A stretch of 64,000 bases of DNA from the NCBI RefSeq assembly GCF_027023865.1, contig NZ_JALVUC010000025.1, positions 73,826 to 137,825 on the forward strand, in the 5' to 3' direction. The notes below the pieces were generated by a model that saw only the letters and a program-made list of their open reading frames with translations, was not told the origin of the DNA and ran no database searches. The translations under genes were made by a program, and so were the position numbers. Shown here one piece after another: positions 52,864-59,597 of the stretch. This DNA comes from Thermococcus sp. Its GTDB lineage: Archaea; Methanobacteriota_B; Thermococci; Thermococcales; Thermococcaceae. Numbering within the stretch: position 1 is the first letter of the stretch; each line of letters opens with the position of its first letter.

Positions 52864-52922
52864 TACAAGGGTTTCGAAAGGTTTATCTATTTCGTGCATG
52901 CATGCATGAATAGGTGGTGTCC

Positions 52923-53153
52923 TTGGGCAAGACGATAACCATAGCCGATGACGTCTACTATGAACTCGTGAAGATGAAGGGCAAGAAGAGCTTTTCAGAA
53001 CTCCTCAGGGAGCTGATAGGTAAGAAAAAGAAAGGCAACCTCGACGTGCTCATGATAGCCTTCGGAACAATGAGTGAGGAAGAAGCCAAGGAGTTCGAGA
53101 AGGAAATGAAGGAGGTTGAGGAATGGCTCAACTCCTGGACACCAGTGTCGTAA
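52923..53153 (+). CDS. vapB: VapB-type antitoxin
   Basis: About 76 residues. The N-terminal beta-strand [18 protein letters not shown] and helix [11 protein letters not shown] form a DNA-binding fold of the kind seen in DUF217-type antitoxins; the C-terminal acidic helix ([19 protein letters not shown]) would wrap the toxin. The start is TTG 52923 after GGTGG; GTG 52914 is in the ribosome site. It overlaps vapC by 31 bases. It probably represses its own promoter together with the toxin. Confidence 0.85.
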
Positions 53154-53494
53154 TTGAACTGTTCAAGGGGAACATGAAGGTTTTCGCCCAACTCCCCTCA
53201 GAGGGGGAGTATGCTCTCCCCTCTATAGTCCTCTTTGAGCTCCTCTGTGGCAGACTTAAGCCCAGACAGAGACTTACCCTCGAAAAGATGCCCGTTGTAA
53301 ACTTCGACAGAGCAAGCGCGGAAGTTGCAGGGGAGATATTTAAAGATTCGGCCTCAAAGGGGCAGAGGCCTCCAACGAAAGACCTGCTAATCGCGGCAAC
53401 TGCAATAGCCCACAATATGACCCTTTATACCTGCGATAGGGGCTTTGAGAGGTTCAAGGAATACGGGCTCAGGGTGAAAACCTTGGAAAAGTAA
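53123..53494 (+). CDS. vapC: VapC-type PIN-domain ribonuclease toxin
   Basis: 123 residues. PIN catalytic acids are complete: D6 (LLDTSV), E39 (FELLCG), D87 (TKDLLIAA) and D105 (CDRGFERF). It would cleave RNA when freed from the overlapping upstream antitoxin. The ATG lies inside the antitoxin gene, indicating translational coupling. The pair sits next to a repeat-flanked ATPase pseudogene in an accessory island. Confidence 0.92.
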
Positions 53495-53548: not shown

Positions 53549-53740
53549 TTGAGATTGGGGAAATTTCTCCTTCTTCTAAGCTTCTTTGTGGGGACGGTCT
53601 TTCTGGCAATGCTATTTGGCTATGCACTCTCACTTTCGCCGGAAGAAAGCCTCTCATTCGCGGTTATTCTGGCTCTTCTCTATACTCTGGCCCATGTTAT
53701 TCGGGAGGAACCAGATAAATGGAGAAAGTCTAGCTCTTAA
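53549..53740 (+). CDS. Small two-TM membrane protein
   Basis: About 63 residues, two hydrophobic helices (LGKFLLLLSFFVGTVFLAML and LSFAVILALLYTLAHVI) with a charged end. Start TTG 53549 after GAGGTGGTGGGG; an upstream TTG at 53510 adds 13 residues before the ribosome site. No family is recognised. It precedes a broken membrane gene and may be its partner. Confidence 0.55.
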   Translation: MRLGKFLLLLSFFVGTVFLAMLFGYALSLSPEESLSFAVILALLYTLAHVIREEPDKWRKSSS

Positions 53741-54492
53741 AATCCAAGGGTTTAAGGTATCTCATCTTTTTCCTAGGCTCGTTTGGGTTCAGTGTGCTCT
53801 TATTCGGGCTTATATATCTGGTCTTTGCAAAACCGGGAACTTCGTTCGTTTCCCTCGTCAAGGTGCTTGGCGCTCTCTTTGCAGTCGGTTCTTTTCTGAT
53901 GTTCCTCGCCTCGGTGTTTTATAGCAAGAATAAGACGTCTGAGAAAATCACTTACTCCTAGCAGAACTTTCTGAGAGAACTTTCGGCGTCTCTCCTCCTC
54001 TTTACAGTTGCGTACCTCTCTGGTGTTGAGCTGGAGAAAAGCATCTCGATGGCGTTTTACGTTTTTGTTATGGCCGGGTGGTACTACTCCATGATGGCGC
54101 ATAGATATATCATACCCGAGCGGATACTTAAAATCCGGACAGTTGTCAATTTCGTGGCCATCAGCTCGGGACTTTACCTTTTTGTAATCAAAAACGCGCT
54201 CATAAGTGTTTTAATGGGAGTGCTGTTTGCGTTTGCCTCAGAAAAAGGCTACAGGATAACCAAGAAGCTCGTGGAAACGGGACTGCTGGAGAGGAGATAC
54301 GCCGAGAGCGGGGCGGGGAGCTTGTTTTACATCATCTCTTATGGGTTTGGAGCTATGGTAGCTTTGATTATGGTCACCGGAAATTATGACACCTCTTTCA
54401 TCAGGGAATCCCTGTTAACGATGTTCAGGCTACTTTATCTGTTCACGGCGATTTTCCTTCCCTTTGGGACGCTTCTCGGGTGGGTTAGTTGA
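53734..54492 (+). pseudogene. Multi-TM membrane protein gene interrupted by an in-frame TAG
   Basis: One frame reads LRYLIFFLGSFGFSVLLFG, a second TM near ALFAVGSFLMFLASVF, then an in-frame TAG at 53959-53961, and continues without shift through LRELSASLLLFTVAYLSG and three or four more TMs to GTLLGWVS at 54492. No start codon is seen at the 5' end of the frame. The 3' part could be translated from ATG 54049 (147 residues). TAG where CAG (Gln) would fit suggests a single point mutation. No family is recognised. Confidence 0.6.
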
Positions 54493-54601: not shown

Positions 54602-54651
54602 AAATCCTACGAAAAAAAAACGTTAGTTAATCCAACTAGTAAAAAGAAAGA

Positions 54652-54660
54652 TTTATATAG
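54652..54660 (+). promoter_or_regulatory. TATA box of the halocin-like precursor gene
   Basis: TTTATATAG with purine-rich BRE (GAAAG) upstream; transcript start expected near 54684, leaving a short leader with AGGTGG before ATG 54704. Confidence 0.7.
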
Positions 54661-54703
54661 TTTCATATACTATTAAGAGTGACCAACTGGTCAGGTGGTA
54701 GCC

Positions 54704-55681
54704 ATGAATTGGAGGAAGACTGCTTTCGGGGTTTTTCTTGTGGCCATGGTGTTGAGCCTGCAGTTGATTGTGGCTCCCCAAGCAATGGCGATGAGCACGA
54801 ATAACGCCAGCATTACCTTCCGCAGGGCTGTTGTTGCCTGGTATGACGACAGGGGCAGGCTCCAGATGAACGTTACATGGGTGAATAAGGTCGTTAACTT
54901 CACTAACCTGACTAAGGGCTGTCCGCTCCACAAGTCCAACGTTACTCCCAAGGTCAACGTTTCAATAGTTACGCTTTACAACATGAGCGAAAAGCACGAG
55001 CAGTTGCTGTTCTTTAGACTGAACTTCTACAACAGCACGTTCAATTACACAATGTACGCGCTCGTTTACCGTGCCGAGCGGAGCCAGTACAACTTTACTC
55101 TCGTCACGAGGATATTTACTGACCTTAAGACTGGTGAGTACAGGGCTTACCTGACTGGAATGAACATTGCTCCTGATGATAAGAACAAGGCAGTTCCTGT
55201 TGGGGATGTTATACTCATTGCTAACAACTTGACTCTCTCGCAGTATTACTGGACTCTTAACAGGGTTCTCATGAAGCTTAGAAAGCACGATGAGACGAAC
55301 TGGATTTGGGGCAGGAGTGCTTACGAGCTGAGGCACTTATCGCACTTGGTGAGGCTCAAACTGCCAGAGTACAACCAGGAAAAAGCAGTGGGAATGACAG
55401 CAACTATGGACCTTAACATCGGTTGTAGCGCTTGTGTCGCATTGGCTGGTTATTTATGTGGTGTTTTAGCATCAGGGGTATCAGGGTATGTAGCATGCAC
55501 AGAAGCATGCGGAGAGTTTTGTGTAGTATTTATCGAGGCTGGAGGCATTGGGTATTTTATATGCTTGGGAACATGTGAAGTGACTTGTAACGCCCTGTTA
55601 AGAATTATTGTTGGAGCAGGGACATATACAGCATGCGCATTAGGAGGATATTACATATGTGAAAAAGCAGGTTTGTGTTAG
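54704..55681 (+). CDS. Secreted halocin C8-like cysteine-rich archaeocin precursor (predicted)
   Basis: 325 residues. A Sec signal peptide (about 1-29, ending QAMA, no twin-Arg) is followed by an extracytoplasmic domain to about 235 with 11 N-x-S/T sequons and one Cys. A Cys-rich domain D236-C325 has Cys at 241, 244, 252, 265, 269, 273, 287, 291, 295, 311, 319, 325 and no sequon. It opens NIGCSAC and ends AGLC, as does mature halocin C8 (opens with GCSAC, ends with AGLC, 10 Cys, 76 residues). In halocin C8 one precursor carries an N-terminal immunity domain and the C-terminal peptide; the same layout is inferred here. The Cys-rich part is more AT-rich than the N-terminal part. Start ATG follows AGGTGG. 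A non-antimicrobial surface protein is the alternative. Confidence 0.75.
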   Translation: MNWRKTAFGVFLVAMVLSLQLIVAPQAMAMSTNNASITFRRAVVAWYDDRGRLQMNVTWVNKVVNFTNLTKGCPLHKSNVTPKVNVSIVTLYNMSEKHEQLLFFRLNFYNSTFNYTMYALVYRAERSQYNFTLVTRIFTDLKTGEYRAYLTGMNIAPDDKNKAVPVGDVILIANNLTLSQYYWTLNRVLMKLRKHDETNWIWGRSAYELRHLSHLVRLKLPEYNQEKAVGMTATMDLNIGCSACVALAGYLCGVLASGVSGYVACTEACGEFCVVFIEAGGIGYFICLGTCEVTCNALLRIIVGAGTYTACALGGYYICEKAGLC

Positions 55682-55732: not shown

Positions 55733-56044
55733 ATGGTTTATTGTTTAGTAGTTTTCGCTTCCCTGCTAGGTCTCTCTTTGGCTTTGCTTACCATTGGGAC
55801 ATACAAGTACTACTCAAAACCAAGGATTCGTAGGAGTGAAGGAGTCATTATGTTAAACCCTAATAGTACAAACTTTGAGGGAATACATGAACTTCCAGAG
55901 GATTTCAAACGTACTGCTGATGTAGTGGAACATGAATTGGCTTTGAAATTCAAACAAAAACAACAAAAGAGTGCAATTTTGTTGATAAAAATTGCTCTTA
56001 TCGGGATTATTATATCAATTATAGGATTGTTTTTGTTTGACTGA
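55733..56044 (+). CDS. Small two-TM membrane protein, candidate immunity or export partner
   Basis: 103 residues: an N-terminal TM (LVVFASLLGLSLALLTIGTY), a cytoplasmic or surface loop of about 50 residues with charged helix, and a C-terminal TM (ILLIKIALIGIIISIIGLFL). GGGGGTG precedes the ATG. AT-rich, with TTA/ATA codons unlike the core genes. It lies 51 bases after the halocin-like gene, same strand; function inferred from position only. Confidence 0.6.
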   Translation: MVYCLVVFASLLGLSLALLTIGTYKYYSKPRIRRSEGVIMLNPNSTNFEGIHELPEDFKRTADVVEHELALKFKQKQQKSAILLIKIALIGIIISIIGLFLFD

Positions 56045-56115
56045 AGACTAAATTCAGGGAATAAAGAGAATGGTGAAACCATGGACATAATAACTAGATT
56101 TTTCCAATCCCATTC

Positions 56116-56400
56116 ATGATCTCGGCGGTTGCATACGGCATATATGCAAAAGAGTTGTTACCTATTATTGCTGGGGTAGTGGGTATGGCGATTTATGTTC
56201 TAAGCCTTAGGAATGATAAAGAGGAGACCTTAATAAAACTAACAGGCCTTGTCGCTATGTTTTCCTCAATCTTCGCCCTCTGGGAGAATTCGATCAGATA
56301 CCTCTCAATAGTGGGGGTCGTAGTAATGGCAATCCTTGAATTTTTAGCAGAAACGAGACGAAGAGAAATAAAAAGGGCGACAGGTGGAGTTCAAAATTAG
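56116..56400 (+). CDS. Small three-TM membrane protein, possibly with a shifted start
   Basis: 94 residues, three hydrophobic helices and a basic end. ATG 56116 has no ribosome site. A better-placed start, ATG 56081 with GGTGA, opens only a 12-codon frame (MDIITRFFQSHS) that ends overlapping ATG 56116, so either a frameshift separated the true N-terminus or the short frame is a leader. AT-rich, third gene of the halocin-like unit; the stop overlaps the convergent ileS end by 4 bases. Confidence 0.5.
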   Translation: MISAVAYGIYAKELLPIIAGVVGMAIYVLSLRNDKEETLIKLTGLVAMFSSIFALWENSIRYLSIVGVVVMAILEFLAETRRREIKRATGGVQN

Positions 56401-59400
56401 CTATCAACCTTCTCAATCCCTATCTTCGCCCGAACCTCGGGCCACTCAACGACGTAGCCCTTGGCTTCGTCAAAGACCACATCCACAGCCCTTGTTTCTC
56501 CCTTTATGTAGTCGAGGTTCTCCCCGAGCAGCTCACGGTTTTCTTCGCTCGTCTCTATGGTAACCTTAATGCGGTCGTTGACGTCTAAATCCAGGCGCTT
56601 GCGCATCTCCTGTATTCTCCTCACGAATTCTCTGGCGAGGCCTTCCGCTAAAAGCTCCCTTGTTAGTGTCTTGTCGATAAAGACTTTTCCACCCTCGAAC
56701 TCCTCAGCGACAAGGAAGTCTGGTAGTTTCTCCTCTACGCTCAGGTGCTCCCTCGTGAGGTGGAAAGTCTTGCCCTCAATTTCGACATCCCTCTCCCCGA
56801 CCTCGTAGAGTTCCCTGCCATGTTCACCTATCCAGGCTATGACCTTCTTTGCGTCGCCCTTGAACTCCGGACCGACCTTGGCGAAGTTCGGCTTTATGAC
56901 GAGTTCGCGCTCGACCTTGCCAACGGCCACTTCCTTGGCGTTGAGCTGGTCCTTCAGCAGGCGGTTAAGCCTCTCGACGGCCTTCGCGACGGTATCCCCC
57001 CCGGTCTCAATGATTATCTTCCTTACCGGGTAGCGGAGCTTTATCCTGGCCCTCTGCCTCGCTGATGAACCGGCCTCGACGATCCTCCTGACATACTCCA
57101 TCTCGCGCTCAAGATCCACGTCTATGGCCTTCTCATCCGGCTCGGGCCAGTCGAGCATGTGGACGCTCTCCACTCCAAGGAAAGGTCTCAGAAGATTCTG
57201 GTATATCTCCTCGGATATGTAGGGTGTAAACGGTGCCATCAACCTCAGTAGCACGTCGAAGACCTTCCAGACGGTGTAGTAGGCCGCTAACTTGTCCGGG
57301 TCGTTACTTTCAACCCACATGCGCTTCCTGATGAGCCTCACGTACCACCTGCTGAGGTCTTCAACCACGAAGTTGTAGATTGCCCTCGTTGCCCTCGTGA
57401 GCCTGAAGGTCTCTACCCCCTCCGTGACCTCCCCTATGAGGCTGTTGGCCCTGCTGAGTATCCATTTGTCCTCCTCTCTGAACGGAAGTTCCTCTGGAAC
57501 CTTCGTCGGGTCAAAGCTGTCGAGGCTCATGTAGGTGGAGGAGAGCACGTAGACGTTCCAGAGTATGTTCAACATGCGCTTGACCTGTTCAAGGCCCTTC
57601 CAGCTGAAGCGGAGGTTCTCCCAGGGGTTGGTGGCCCAGAGCATGTAGAACCTGAAGGGGTCGCGCCCTTCCTTCTGGACGACCTCCTCCGGGCGGATGA
57701 TGTTGCCGAGGCTCTTACTCATCTTGTCGCCCTTTTCATCGAGGACGTAGCCGTGCATGGCAACCTTCCTGTAGGGGACGGTGTTGAAGGCTATAACCGA
57801 GGCGGCCTGCTGGGAGTAGAACCACTTGGTGACCTGGTCCTCACCCTCAACTATGAAGTCCGCCGGCCAGAGCTTTTTGAAGTTCTCCTCAGTCCTCGGA
57901 TAATCAAGGGAGGCCCAGCTGGCTATTCCGCTGTCAAACCACACGTCCACGACGTCCTTAACACGGCGCATCTCCCTGCCGTTGACCTCTATTATGAACG
58001 CATCAACGTAGGGTCTGTGTAGATCTTCAGGACCGAGCTTCTCCTCGATGACCTTGAGCTTCTCTTCGTAATCTTCCGGGAGTTCAATGCGCTCGCTGCC
58101 CACCTCAATGGCGACGCTCTTCTCGACCAGCTCTCTGAAGGAACCAACGACGTATATTTCGCCGTCATCGGCCTGCCATATCGGGAGCGGGATTCCCCAG
58201 TAGCGCTGCCTGCTTATGACCCAGTCGCCGCTGTTCATGACACCGTTGTCATAGCGCACCTTGACCCAGTCAGGATACCAGGTGACCTTCTCGTCGTTCT
58301 CCTTTATGATATCCTCTTTGACCTTGCTTACCTTGAGGAACCACTGGTCTGTGGCGCGGAAGATGAGCGGGGTCTTGCAACGCCAGCAGTGGGGGTACTT
58401 GTGTTCTATCTCGCCGGCCTTGAGGAGGTAGCCCTTCCCGCGAAGGTGCTCTATTACCTCTCTATCGGCGTCTTTAACGTAGGTTCCCTTCCACTTCCCC
58501 TCAGTATACCTTCCAGCTTCGTCAACGGGGCTGTATATTGGCAGTCCGTAGCGCTTTCCGACCTCGAAGTCCTCCTCACCATGGCCCGGAGCGGTGTGGA
58601 CGAGGCCAGTTCCATCCTCAAGCGTTACGTGCTCGCCGAGGATAACCCTGTGCGCCCATTCATACTTCTCGCGGAACTCCTTTTGAGCCGGATACTCGTC
58701 CATGAGGATATGAACGTAGCGGATTCCCTCAAGCTCTTTGCCCTTGAACTCCTCAATGATTTCACCCTTGACGCCTGCCTCACTGAGAACGCGCTCGATG
58801 AGGGCTTTCGCTATTATCCAGTACTCCTCACCGTTATTGGTCTTCACTCTAACCTTGGCATAGTCGTACTCCGGGTGGACTGCTACGGCCAAGTTCGCCG
58901 GGAGCGTCCAGGGTGTTGTTGTCCAGATGATGAGGTACTCGTTGGTTTTTCCTTCCACAGGGAACTTGACGTAGATGCTCGGGTCCTCCCTGAGCTTGTA
59001 CTCGCCGCGGACCTCGTGCTCTGCCAAAGCCGTCTGACAGCGCGGACACCAGTGGAGGACGCGCTTGTCTTTTTTGAGTAGACCCTTCTCGTAGGCCCGC
59101 TTTAGAGTGAACCAGCCGGACTCGATGTACTCGTTCTTTATGGTCATGTAGGGGTTGTCCCAGTCCATCCATATGCCCAGTTGCTTGAACTGCTCTGTCA
59201 TAACCTTGAGGTTGTTGAGGGCGAACTCCTTGCACTTCTTTATGAAGTTGTCCACTCCAATTTCGGTCTCTATGTCCCTCTTTGTCTTAAGGCCGAGGGC
59301 CTGCTCGACCTTAACCTCTATCGGAAGGCCGTGCATGTCGAAGCCCGGCTGTCTGCGCACGTTGTAACCCTGCATCGTCCTGAAGCGTATTATCATGTCC

Positions 59401-59597
59401 TTGATTATCTTGTTCCACGCGGTTCCAAGGTGTATCGCACCGCTGACGTAGGGCGGCCCATCAAGGAAGTAGTACTTCGGACCGTTGGTCCTACTGGCTT
59501 TGACCTTCTCGTAGGTGCCGTTCTCCTTCCAAAAGCGCTCTATCTTCTCCTCAAGCTTACCCGGGTCATACTCTCTGAACTCAGGCTCTTTAATCAT
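56397..59597 (-). CDS. ileS: Isoleucyl-tRNA synthetase
   Basis: Charges tRNA-Ile. 1066 residues, class I. HIGH-type motif GAIHLGTAWNK, editing domain (WTTTPWTLPANLAVAV, GTGLVHTAPGHGEED), zinc-like CPRC and CWRC pairs, and KMSKS near residue 620. The archaeal/eukaryal-type C-terminal anticodon-binding region is present. Typical length. A leftward gene with ATG 59597; it marks the end of the accessory island. Confidence 0.97.
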   Translation of the reverse strand: MIKEPEFREYDPGKLEEKIERFWKENGTYEKVKASRTNGPKYYFLDGPPYVSGAIHLGTAWNKIIKDMIIRFRTMQGYNVRRQPGFDMHGLPIEVKVEQALGLKTKRDIETEIGVDNFIKKCKEFALNNLKVMTEQFKQLGIWMDWDNPYMTIKNEYIESGWFTLKRAYEKGLLKKDKRVLHWCPRCQTALAEHEVRGEYKLREDPSIYVKFPVEGKTNEYLIIWTTTPWTLPANLAVAVHPEYDYAKVRVKTNNGEEYWIIAKALIERVLSEAGVKGEIIEEFKGKELEGIRYVHILMDEYPAQKEFREKYEWAHRVILGEHVTLEDGTGLVHTAPGHGEEDFEVGKRYGLPIYSPVDEAGRYTEGKWKGTYVKDADREVIEHLRGKGYLLKAGEIEHKYPHCWRCKTPLIFRATDQWFLKVSKVKEDIIKENDEKVTWYPDWVKVRYDNGVMNSGDWVISRQRYWGIPLPIWQADDGEIYVVGSFRELVEKSVAIEVGSERIELPEDYEEKLKVIEEKLGPEDLHRPYVDAFIIEVNGREMRRVKDVVDVWFDSGIASWASLDYPRTEENFKKLWPADFIVEGEDQVTKWFYSQQAASVIAFNTVPYRKVAMHGYVLDEKGDKMSKSLGNIIRPEEVVQKEGRDPFRFYMLWATNPWENLRFSWKGLEQVKRMLNILWNVYVLSSTYMSLDSFDPTKVPEELPFREEDKWILSRANSLIGEVTEGVETFRLTRATRAIYNFVVEDLSRWYVRLIRKRMWVESNDPDKLAAYYTVWKVFDVLLRLMAPFTPYISEEIYQNLLRPFLGVESVHMLDWPEPDEKAIDVDLEREMEYVRRIVEAGSSARQRARIKLRYPVRKIIIETGGDTVAKAVERLNRLLKDQLNAKEVAVGKVERELVIKPNFAKVGPEFKGDAKKVIAWIGEHGRELYEVGERDVEIEGKTFHLTREHLSVEEKLPDFLVAEEFEGGKVFIDKTLTRELLAEGLAREFVRRIQEMRKRLDLDVNDRIKVTIETSEENRELLGENLDYIKGETRAVDVVFDEAKGYVVEWPEVRAKIGIEKVDS

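Follow-up and report, generated by a model that had tools for sequence, protein, structure and literature searches.

The precursor gene and its halocin C8-like tail

The stretch analyzed here, referred to as the window, comprises 64,000 nucleotides of a Thermococcus genome (NCBI RefSeq assembly GCF_027023865.1, contig NZ_JALVUC010000025.1, positions 73,826 to 137,825). An initial annotation, made from the sequence alone, had proposed that the open reading frame (ORF) at 54704-55681 encodes a secreted halocin C8-like archaeocin precursor of a hyperthermophile. The ORF was confirmed with exactly these coordinates on the plus strand and a product of 325 aa, the host is indeed a hyperthermophile, and the layout supports a predicted secreted precursor. 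A putative Sec-type signal peptide (residues 1-29, 54704..54790) ends in PQAMA|M, with A29 invariant among the homologues (alignment A1). It is followed by an N-terminal carrier or pro-domain (N-domain; residues 30-235, 54791..55408), which is kept across species whatever the tail, and by a C-terminal toxin-like tail (residues 236-325, 55409..55678) that we assign to class T7. The two parts meet at a G-x5-D junction (55391..55411), in which G230 and D236 are invariant in 32 homologues (alignment A1). A processing site directly before D236 is proposed. The mature halocin C8 peptide likewise starts with Asp.

The tail matches its earlier description: it contains 12 Cys in 90 residues, including the clusters 265/269/273 and 287/291/295, and it starts with DLNIGCSAC and finishes with KAGLC. 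Nine other proteins of the window have a Cys frequency of 0.5%, at which at least 12 Cys among 90 residues would have a probability of about 5e-14. The likeness to halocin C8 was confirmed by a profile search; NCBIfam model TIGR04449 (halocin_C8_dom; curated cut-off 24 bits) matched residues 241-325 over its full length (1-69/69), scoring 33.1 bits. The model matched none of 10 shuffled tails, in five of which the Cys positions had been fixed. Moreover, eight Cys columns are invariant between the Thermococcus tails and halocin C8-like proteins of haloarchaea (Haloferax and Halobacterium). Given the profile score, the negative shuffles, the Cys enrichment and the eight common columns, the homology is real. 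The tail is hydrophobic, and its predicted structure is a confident helical bundle (pLDDT 84.9). The top seven matches of this model in the PDB all contain saposin-like domains, including NK-lysin, with TM-scores of 0.40-0.63 on the query. These matches are weak but consistent, and the fold may be saposin-like.

The N-domain contains 11 N-glycosylation sequons, compared with 2.7 in shuffles; together with the signal peptide, this indicates an exported glycoprotein. Its predicted model is mostly beta, followed by two helices. No Pfam match above cut-off was obtained for the N-domain, and a sequence search of the PDB returned nothing significant. No member of the N-domain family was found beyond three genera, which belong to a single family. 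An origin from a mobile element was rejected, as plasmid, phage and IMG/VR collections gave no match to the N-domain family.

Tails are swapped on one N-terminal domain

Homologues of the precursor were present in 29 of the 94 Thermococcaceae genomes compared, and TIGR04449 matched in only seven of the 94. The profile is rarer than the precursor homologues because the N-domain is conserved and the tail differs. The homologous ORFs number 46. When their tails were clustered from the invariant Asp behind the conserved junction (D236 in the window copy), 12 classes were obtained at E<1e-8 and 10 at E<1e-3, all of them on one N-domain. Cys counts are even in 11 of the 12 classes (6, 8, 10, 12, 16 or 20); class T3 has 8, with a single exception of 7. 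Among 32 precursors, only eight gave any match to TIGR04449 and none gave a Pfam domain above cut-off.

The exchange of tails is visible at the DNA level. Over the N-domain, the window gene is 80-89% identical to close relatives that carry other tails; over the tail, identity is about 41%. The drop, for example from 85-89% to about 41%, comes at the junction. The reverse mosaic was also found, both between L049 and L051 (N-domain 63%, tail 94%) and across genera between L078 and L047 (N-domain 72%, tail 92%). In the N-domain tree, the closest relatives of the window copy bear tails T2, T3, T9 and T11, and the window genome itself holds three further precursors or remnants of the same family. 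That the window gene represents one allele within a polymorphic family could not be seen from this gene alone.

The region 5' of the gene is shared as well, the 150 nt preceding precursor genes with different tails being mostly 76-88% identical. A BRE/TATA-like element (AAAAAGAAAGATTTATATA) read at 54641..54659 on the plus strand is the putative promoter of the window gene. An inverted repeat, TGACCA-AC-TGGTCA, lies at 54680..54693, at the presumed transcription start, and in the aligned upstream regions the form TGACCA-N2-TGGTCA is retained at this place in most P0001-type precursor genes. The exact sequence TGACCANNTGGTCA has only one copy in the genome (54680-54693). The repeat could be the site of a regulator.

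A second Thermococcus precursor family, of 255-270 aa, was also observed, which has a different N-domain and a variable set of Cys-rich tails of its own. Members lie at L046:4955-5719 (-), L062:4716-5498 (-), L011:952-1734, L012:940-1731 and L098:1411-2220 (-), and the window genome has one near C25:190000. In three genomes this family adjoins a purine-nucleoside-phosphorylase-like gene, and a conserved, secreted-looking protein of 169-175 aa is encoded further on in the locus. In G070 and G018, a second-family precursor has a tail related to a T2 tail, and the next gene resembles the I2c gene (described below) by eye.

Tail-matched membrane proteins and proposed orphan immunity genes

For each locus, the first ORF that follows the tail in the same direction, at a distance of about 5-115 nt, was compared with those of other loci. 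Its family was common to 102 of 112 locus pairs with the same tail class (103 after merging two I7 forms) and to 0 of 878 pairs with different classes, in counts that are not independent since the loci are related by descent; none of 2000 permutations reached the observed linkage between tail class and downstream family. Synteny does not explain the linkage, given that loci at the same site with different tails never had a common downstream family (0/86 pairs), whereas loci with the same tail always did, even when their known sites differed (14/14 pairs). We labelled the downstream families as immunity families by their cognate tail class (I7 for T7, I8 for T8, I5 for T5 and so on), and nearly all units of N-domain and tail, N-T(x), are followed by the corresponding I(x). 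The products, which we propose as immunity proteins, are small and carry 1-7 hydrophobic segments; none of those tested had a Pfam match above cut-off.

In the window, the first gene after the T7 tail (55733..56044, plus strand) encodes the proposed cognate immunity protein, an I7-type product of 103 aa with hydrophobic segments at both ends. When the gene family behind the T7 tail of another species (L064) was made into a profile, this matched 55733-56044 with 22.5 bits by hmmsearch and 91.7% by hhalign. Haloarchaeal halocin C8-like genes also have an unannotated ORF behind them (L092:3329-4021, 230 aa; L093:3304-3510, 68 aa). The 68-aa ORF looks like a small membrane protein, and a separate immunity gene may exist there too.

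In halocin C8, the N-terminal part of the precursor is the immunity protein, and the initial annotation had noted the same layout in the window gene. An immunity role of its N-domain was not supported. The same N-domain precedes 12 unrelated or distantly related tails, and each tail has its own membrane protein behind it while the N-domain does not change with the tail. Comparison with the N-domains of three haloarchaeal halocin C8-like precursors gave an hhalign probability of 0.1%, with a shallow comparison profile. By this result and by its invariance across tails, a HalI-like immunity function of the N-domain was rejected. Considering the linkage to tail class, the orphan genes at the sites and the unchanged N-domain, the tail-matched membrane proteins, not the N-domain, are likely to be the immunity factors.

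The alleles occupy fixed chromosomal sites. At the window site, which is marked by a radical-SAM gene and a VapBC-like pair and then ileS, the tail is T1, T2, T3, T4, T7 or T9 depending on the species; at a second site, marked by a methyltransferase gene and rpsM, it is T3, T4, T5, T6, T7, T9, T11 or T12. The conserved left flank in the window consists of genes for a VapB-like antitoxin and a PIN-domain toxin (52914..53494, plus strand; Pfam VAPB_antitox and PIN, and synteny), and the conserved right flank is ileS (56397..59597, minus strand), which in other species borders six tail classes. In many species, a gene distantly related to the I1 family (28-30% identity in the cases measured) stands without a tail on the radical-SAM/VapB side of the ileS site (L052:9237-9815, L065:4612-5223, L069:6423-7052, L070:2442-3056, L073:330-935, and L116-L118, L120 and L125).

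Immunity-type genes without their tails accumulate at these sites. The order in the window is I5 pseudogene, T7 precursor, I7 and orphan I8. The I5-type pseudogene (53698..54489, plus strand), whose cognate is the 20-Cys class T5, has internal stops (e.g., TAG at 53959-53961), and tblastn found 75% identity to residues 40-302 of a T5-linked I5 protein. The orphan I8-type gene (56116..56400, plus strand), the presumed cognate of T8, seems to be shifted out of frame by one base within a T run close to its start (56105-56120), through either real decay or a sequencing error. Members of the I8 family follow T8 tails in L044 and L052, and L070 and L073 have one as an additional gene. Longer stacks occur elsewhere: L078 has the order N-T1-I1-I1-I1-I11-I2c-I2a, L073 has N-T4-I4-I7-I8, and L052 has N-T2-I2c, next a truncated N-T8-I8 and next a T7 remnant with I7. 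I5 is present in 25 genomes, of which 21 lack a T5 tail and 10 lack any precursor of the family; in the precursor-less genomes examined, the same two sites bear only immunity-type genes and remnants.

A probable polymorphic archaeocin system and its alternatives

Collectively, we interpret the window gene as an allele of a polymorphic, disulfide-rich, membrane-active archaeocin system of Thermococcaceae with tail-matched immunity, a reading to which we assign a probability of about 0.78. The toxic peptide of halocin C8 is cut from its precursor (PMC8628083), and general extracellular proteases are reported to process a haloarchaeal precursor (PMC12893001). In the Thermococcaceae system, the Sec-exported and probably N-glycosylated carrier domain (residues 30-235) would take an interchangeable tail outside the cell. 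By analogy with halocin C8, the tail would probably be freed by proteolysis directly before the invariant Asp236, perhaps by such general proteases. The freed tail, held by disulfides, would act on the membranes of related archaea without the cognate immunity protein. The saposin-like tail model and the membrane-type immunity proteins suggest membrane disruption as the mode of action. Protection of the producer would come from the small membrane protein whose gene lies immediately downstream (55733-56044), its type being set by the tail type. Recombination would swap tail and immunity gene as one unit at a few fixed chromosomal sites, and older immunity genes would stay behind as orphans, presumably protecting against former tails until they decay.

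Several observations weigh against this interpretation. The saposin-like matches are individually not significant (E 0.9-3.5), and the N-domain fold has no match, a Foldseek search of the PDB having returned nothing significant. T2 tails have three immunity families (I2a, I2b and I2c, one per T2 sub-type) and two T10 loci have dissimilar downstream families; the linkage between tail and partner is therefore finer than 12 classes or imperfect. Several precursor copies contain stop codons, including a paralogue in the window genome, and the locus yielded no dedicated protease or exporter.

The same arrangement could serve recognition of self and non-self instead of killing, with the tail as a displayed ligand and the linked membrane protein as its matching receptor in kin recognition or in the control of cell contact or DNA exchange. 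Matched partners, polymorphism at fixed sites and surface localization would look alike under both explanations, and such hypotheses have been published for VARTIG, a known hypervariable Thermococcales surface module with Ig domains (PMC8416519). However, the family of the T7 tail was founded on an antimicrobial peptide, the partner genes are kept without a tail in 10 genomes, which is expected of immunity and not of a receptor, and some partner genes (I1) are tandemly duplicated. We consider recognition unlikely. As for VARTIG itself, the resemblance extends to the organisms, a secreted protein with a recombining C-terminus and a locus like that of a polymorphic toxin system, but VARTIG proteins are large, have Ig domains and lack a Cys-rich tail. 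In a Pfam scan, no Ig model reached the cut-off in the 32 precursors, with only a sub-threshold Big_4 match in two members, and identity with VARTIG was ruled out by these missing domains.

A strictly classical halocin C8 arrangement, in which the N-domain is the immunity protein, the tail is the toxin and the downstream genes are unrelated, would account for a layout like that of halocin C8, where a single gene supplies both the toxin and its immunity (Sun et al. 2005, as cited in PMC8628083). It is very improbable, as the N-domain stays constant while the tail changes, has no detectable similarity to haloarchaeal N-domains, and is followed by a downstream gene that switches whenever the tail class switches. 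Just as improbable is a tail that anchors a surface protein in the membrane or forms its antigenically variable end, diversified to escape viruses. A hydrophobic, helical tail and an N-domain rich in sequons would suit this role, but a plain anchor has no need of 6-20 Cys, nor of partner genes, whether matched or orphan, and the tail is homologous to halocin C8.

The proposed system can be compared with several known ones. With halocin C8 (a haloarchaeal archaeocin, TIGR04449) it has in common a homologous tail domain, eight Cys columns and a toxin at the C-terminus of an exported precursor. It differs in the N-domain, in a signal that is Sec-like and not of the twin-arginine type, and in a tail that is one of 12 interchangeable classes with proposed immunity from a separate, tail-matched membrane protein. 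The Thermococcus system is a relative of halocin C8 by its tail, not by its N-domain, and has a polymorphic-toxin-like logic built from disulfide-rich peptides. The polymorphic toxin systems (CDI, Rhs and similar; Zhang et al. 2012, as cited in PMC8416519 and PMC6393860) likewise combine a conserved N-terminal delivery part with a variable C-terminal toxin and an adjacent matched immunity gene, and have orphan immunity genes, truncated orphan tail modules and recombination at the junction. In contrast, the tails here are short, hydrophobic, disulfide-rich peptides and not enzymes, the proposed immunity proteins are membrane proteins, and the N-domain is small, without filament or secretion-machine parts; no delivery machine was identified at the locus. 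In class II and circular bacteriocins, a small hydrophobic toxin adjoins a small membrane immunity protein and immunity genes stack, as they do here. Unlike these, the Thermococcus locus has a long carrier domain on which tails are swapped, has no double-glycine leader, and yielded no peptidase-transporter.

A literature search turned up no antimicrobial peptide described for Thermococcales and, with Makarova et al. (2019, mBio) outside its coverage, no account of tail swapping or matched immunity genes. That work reportedly widened the halocin C8 family to diverse archaea and may list some Thermococcales members. We regard it as rather likely that the whole comprises one conserved secreted carrier and at least 12 exchangeable, disulfide-rich, saposin-like, membrane-active tails at fixed sites, with their own membrane immunity proteins and with immunity stacks as a record of earlier tails, and that most tail classes and all immunity families tested are in no curated family.

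Competition among hyperthermophiles at vents is little known. If the interpretation is correct, it would reveal an unrecognized family of interchangeable toxins and antidotes that heat-loving archaea use against each other, with at least 12 heat-stable, disulfide-rich toxin candidates and their immunity proteins. One chromosomal site with many alleles would offer natural experiments, and some species of the group are genetically tractable. The immunity role would shift from the precursor N-domain to a separate matched membrane protein, and bacteriocin-like peptides would be joined with the logic of polymorphic toxins.
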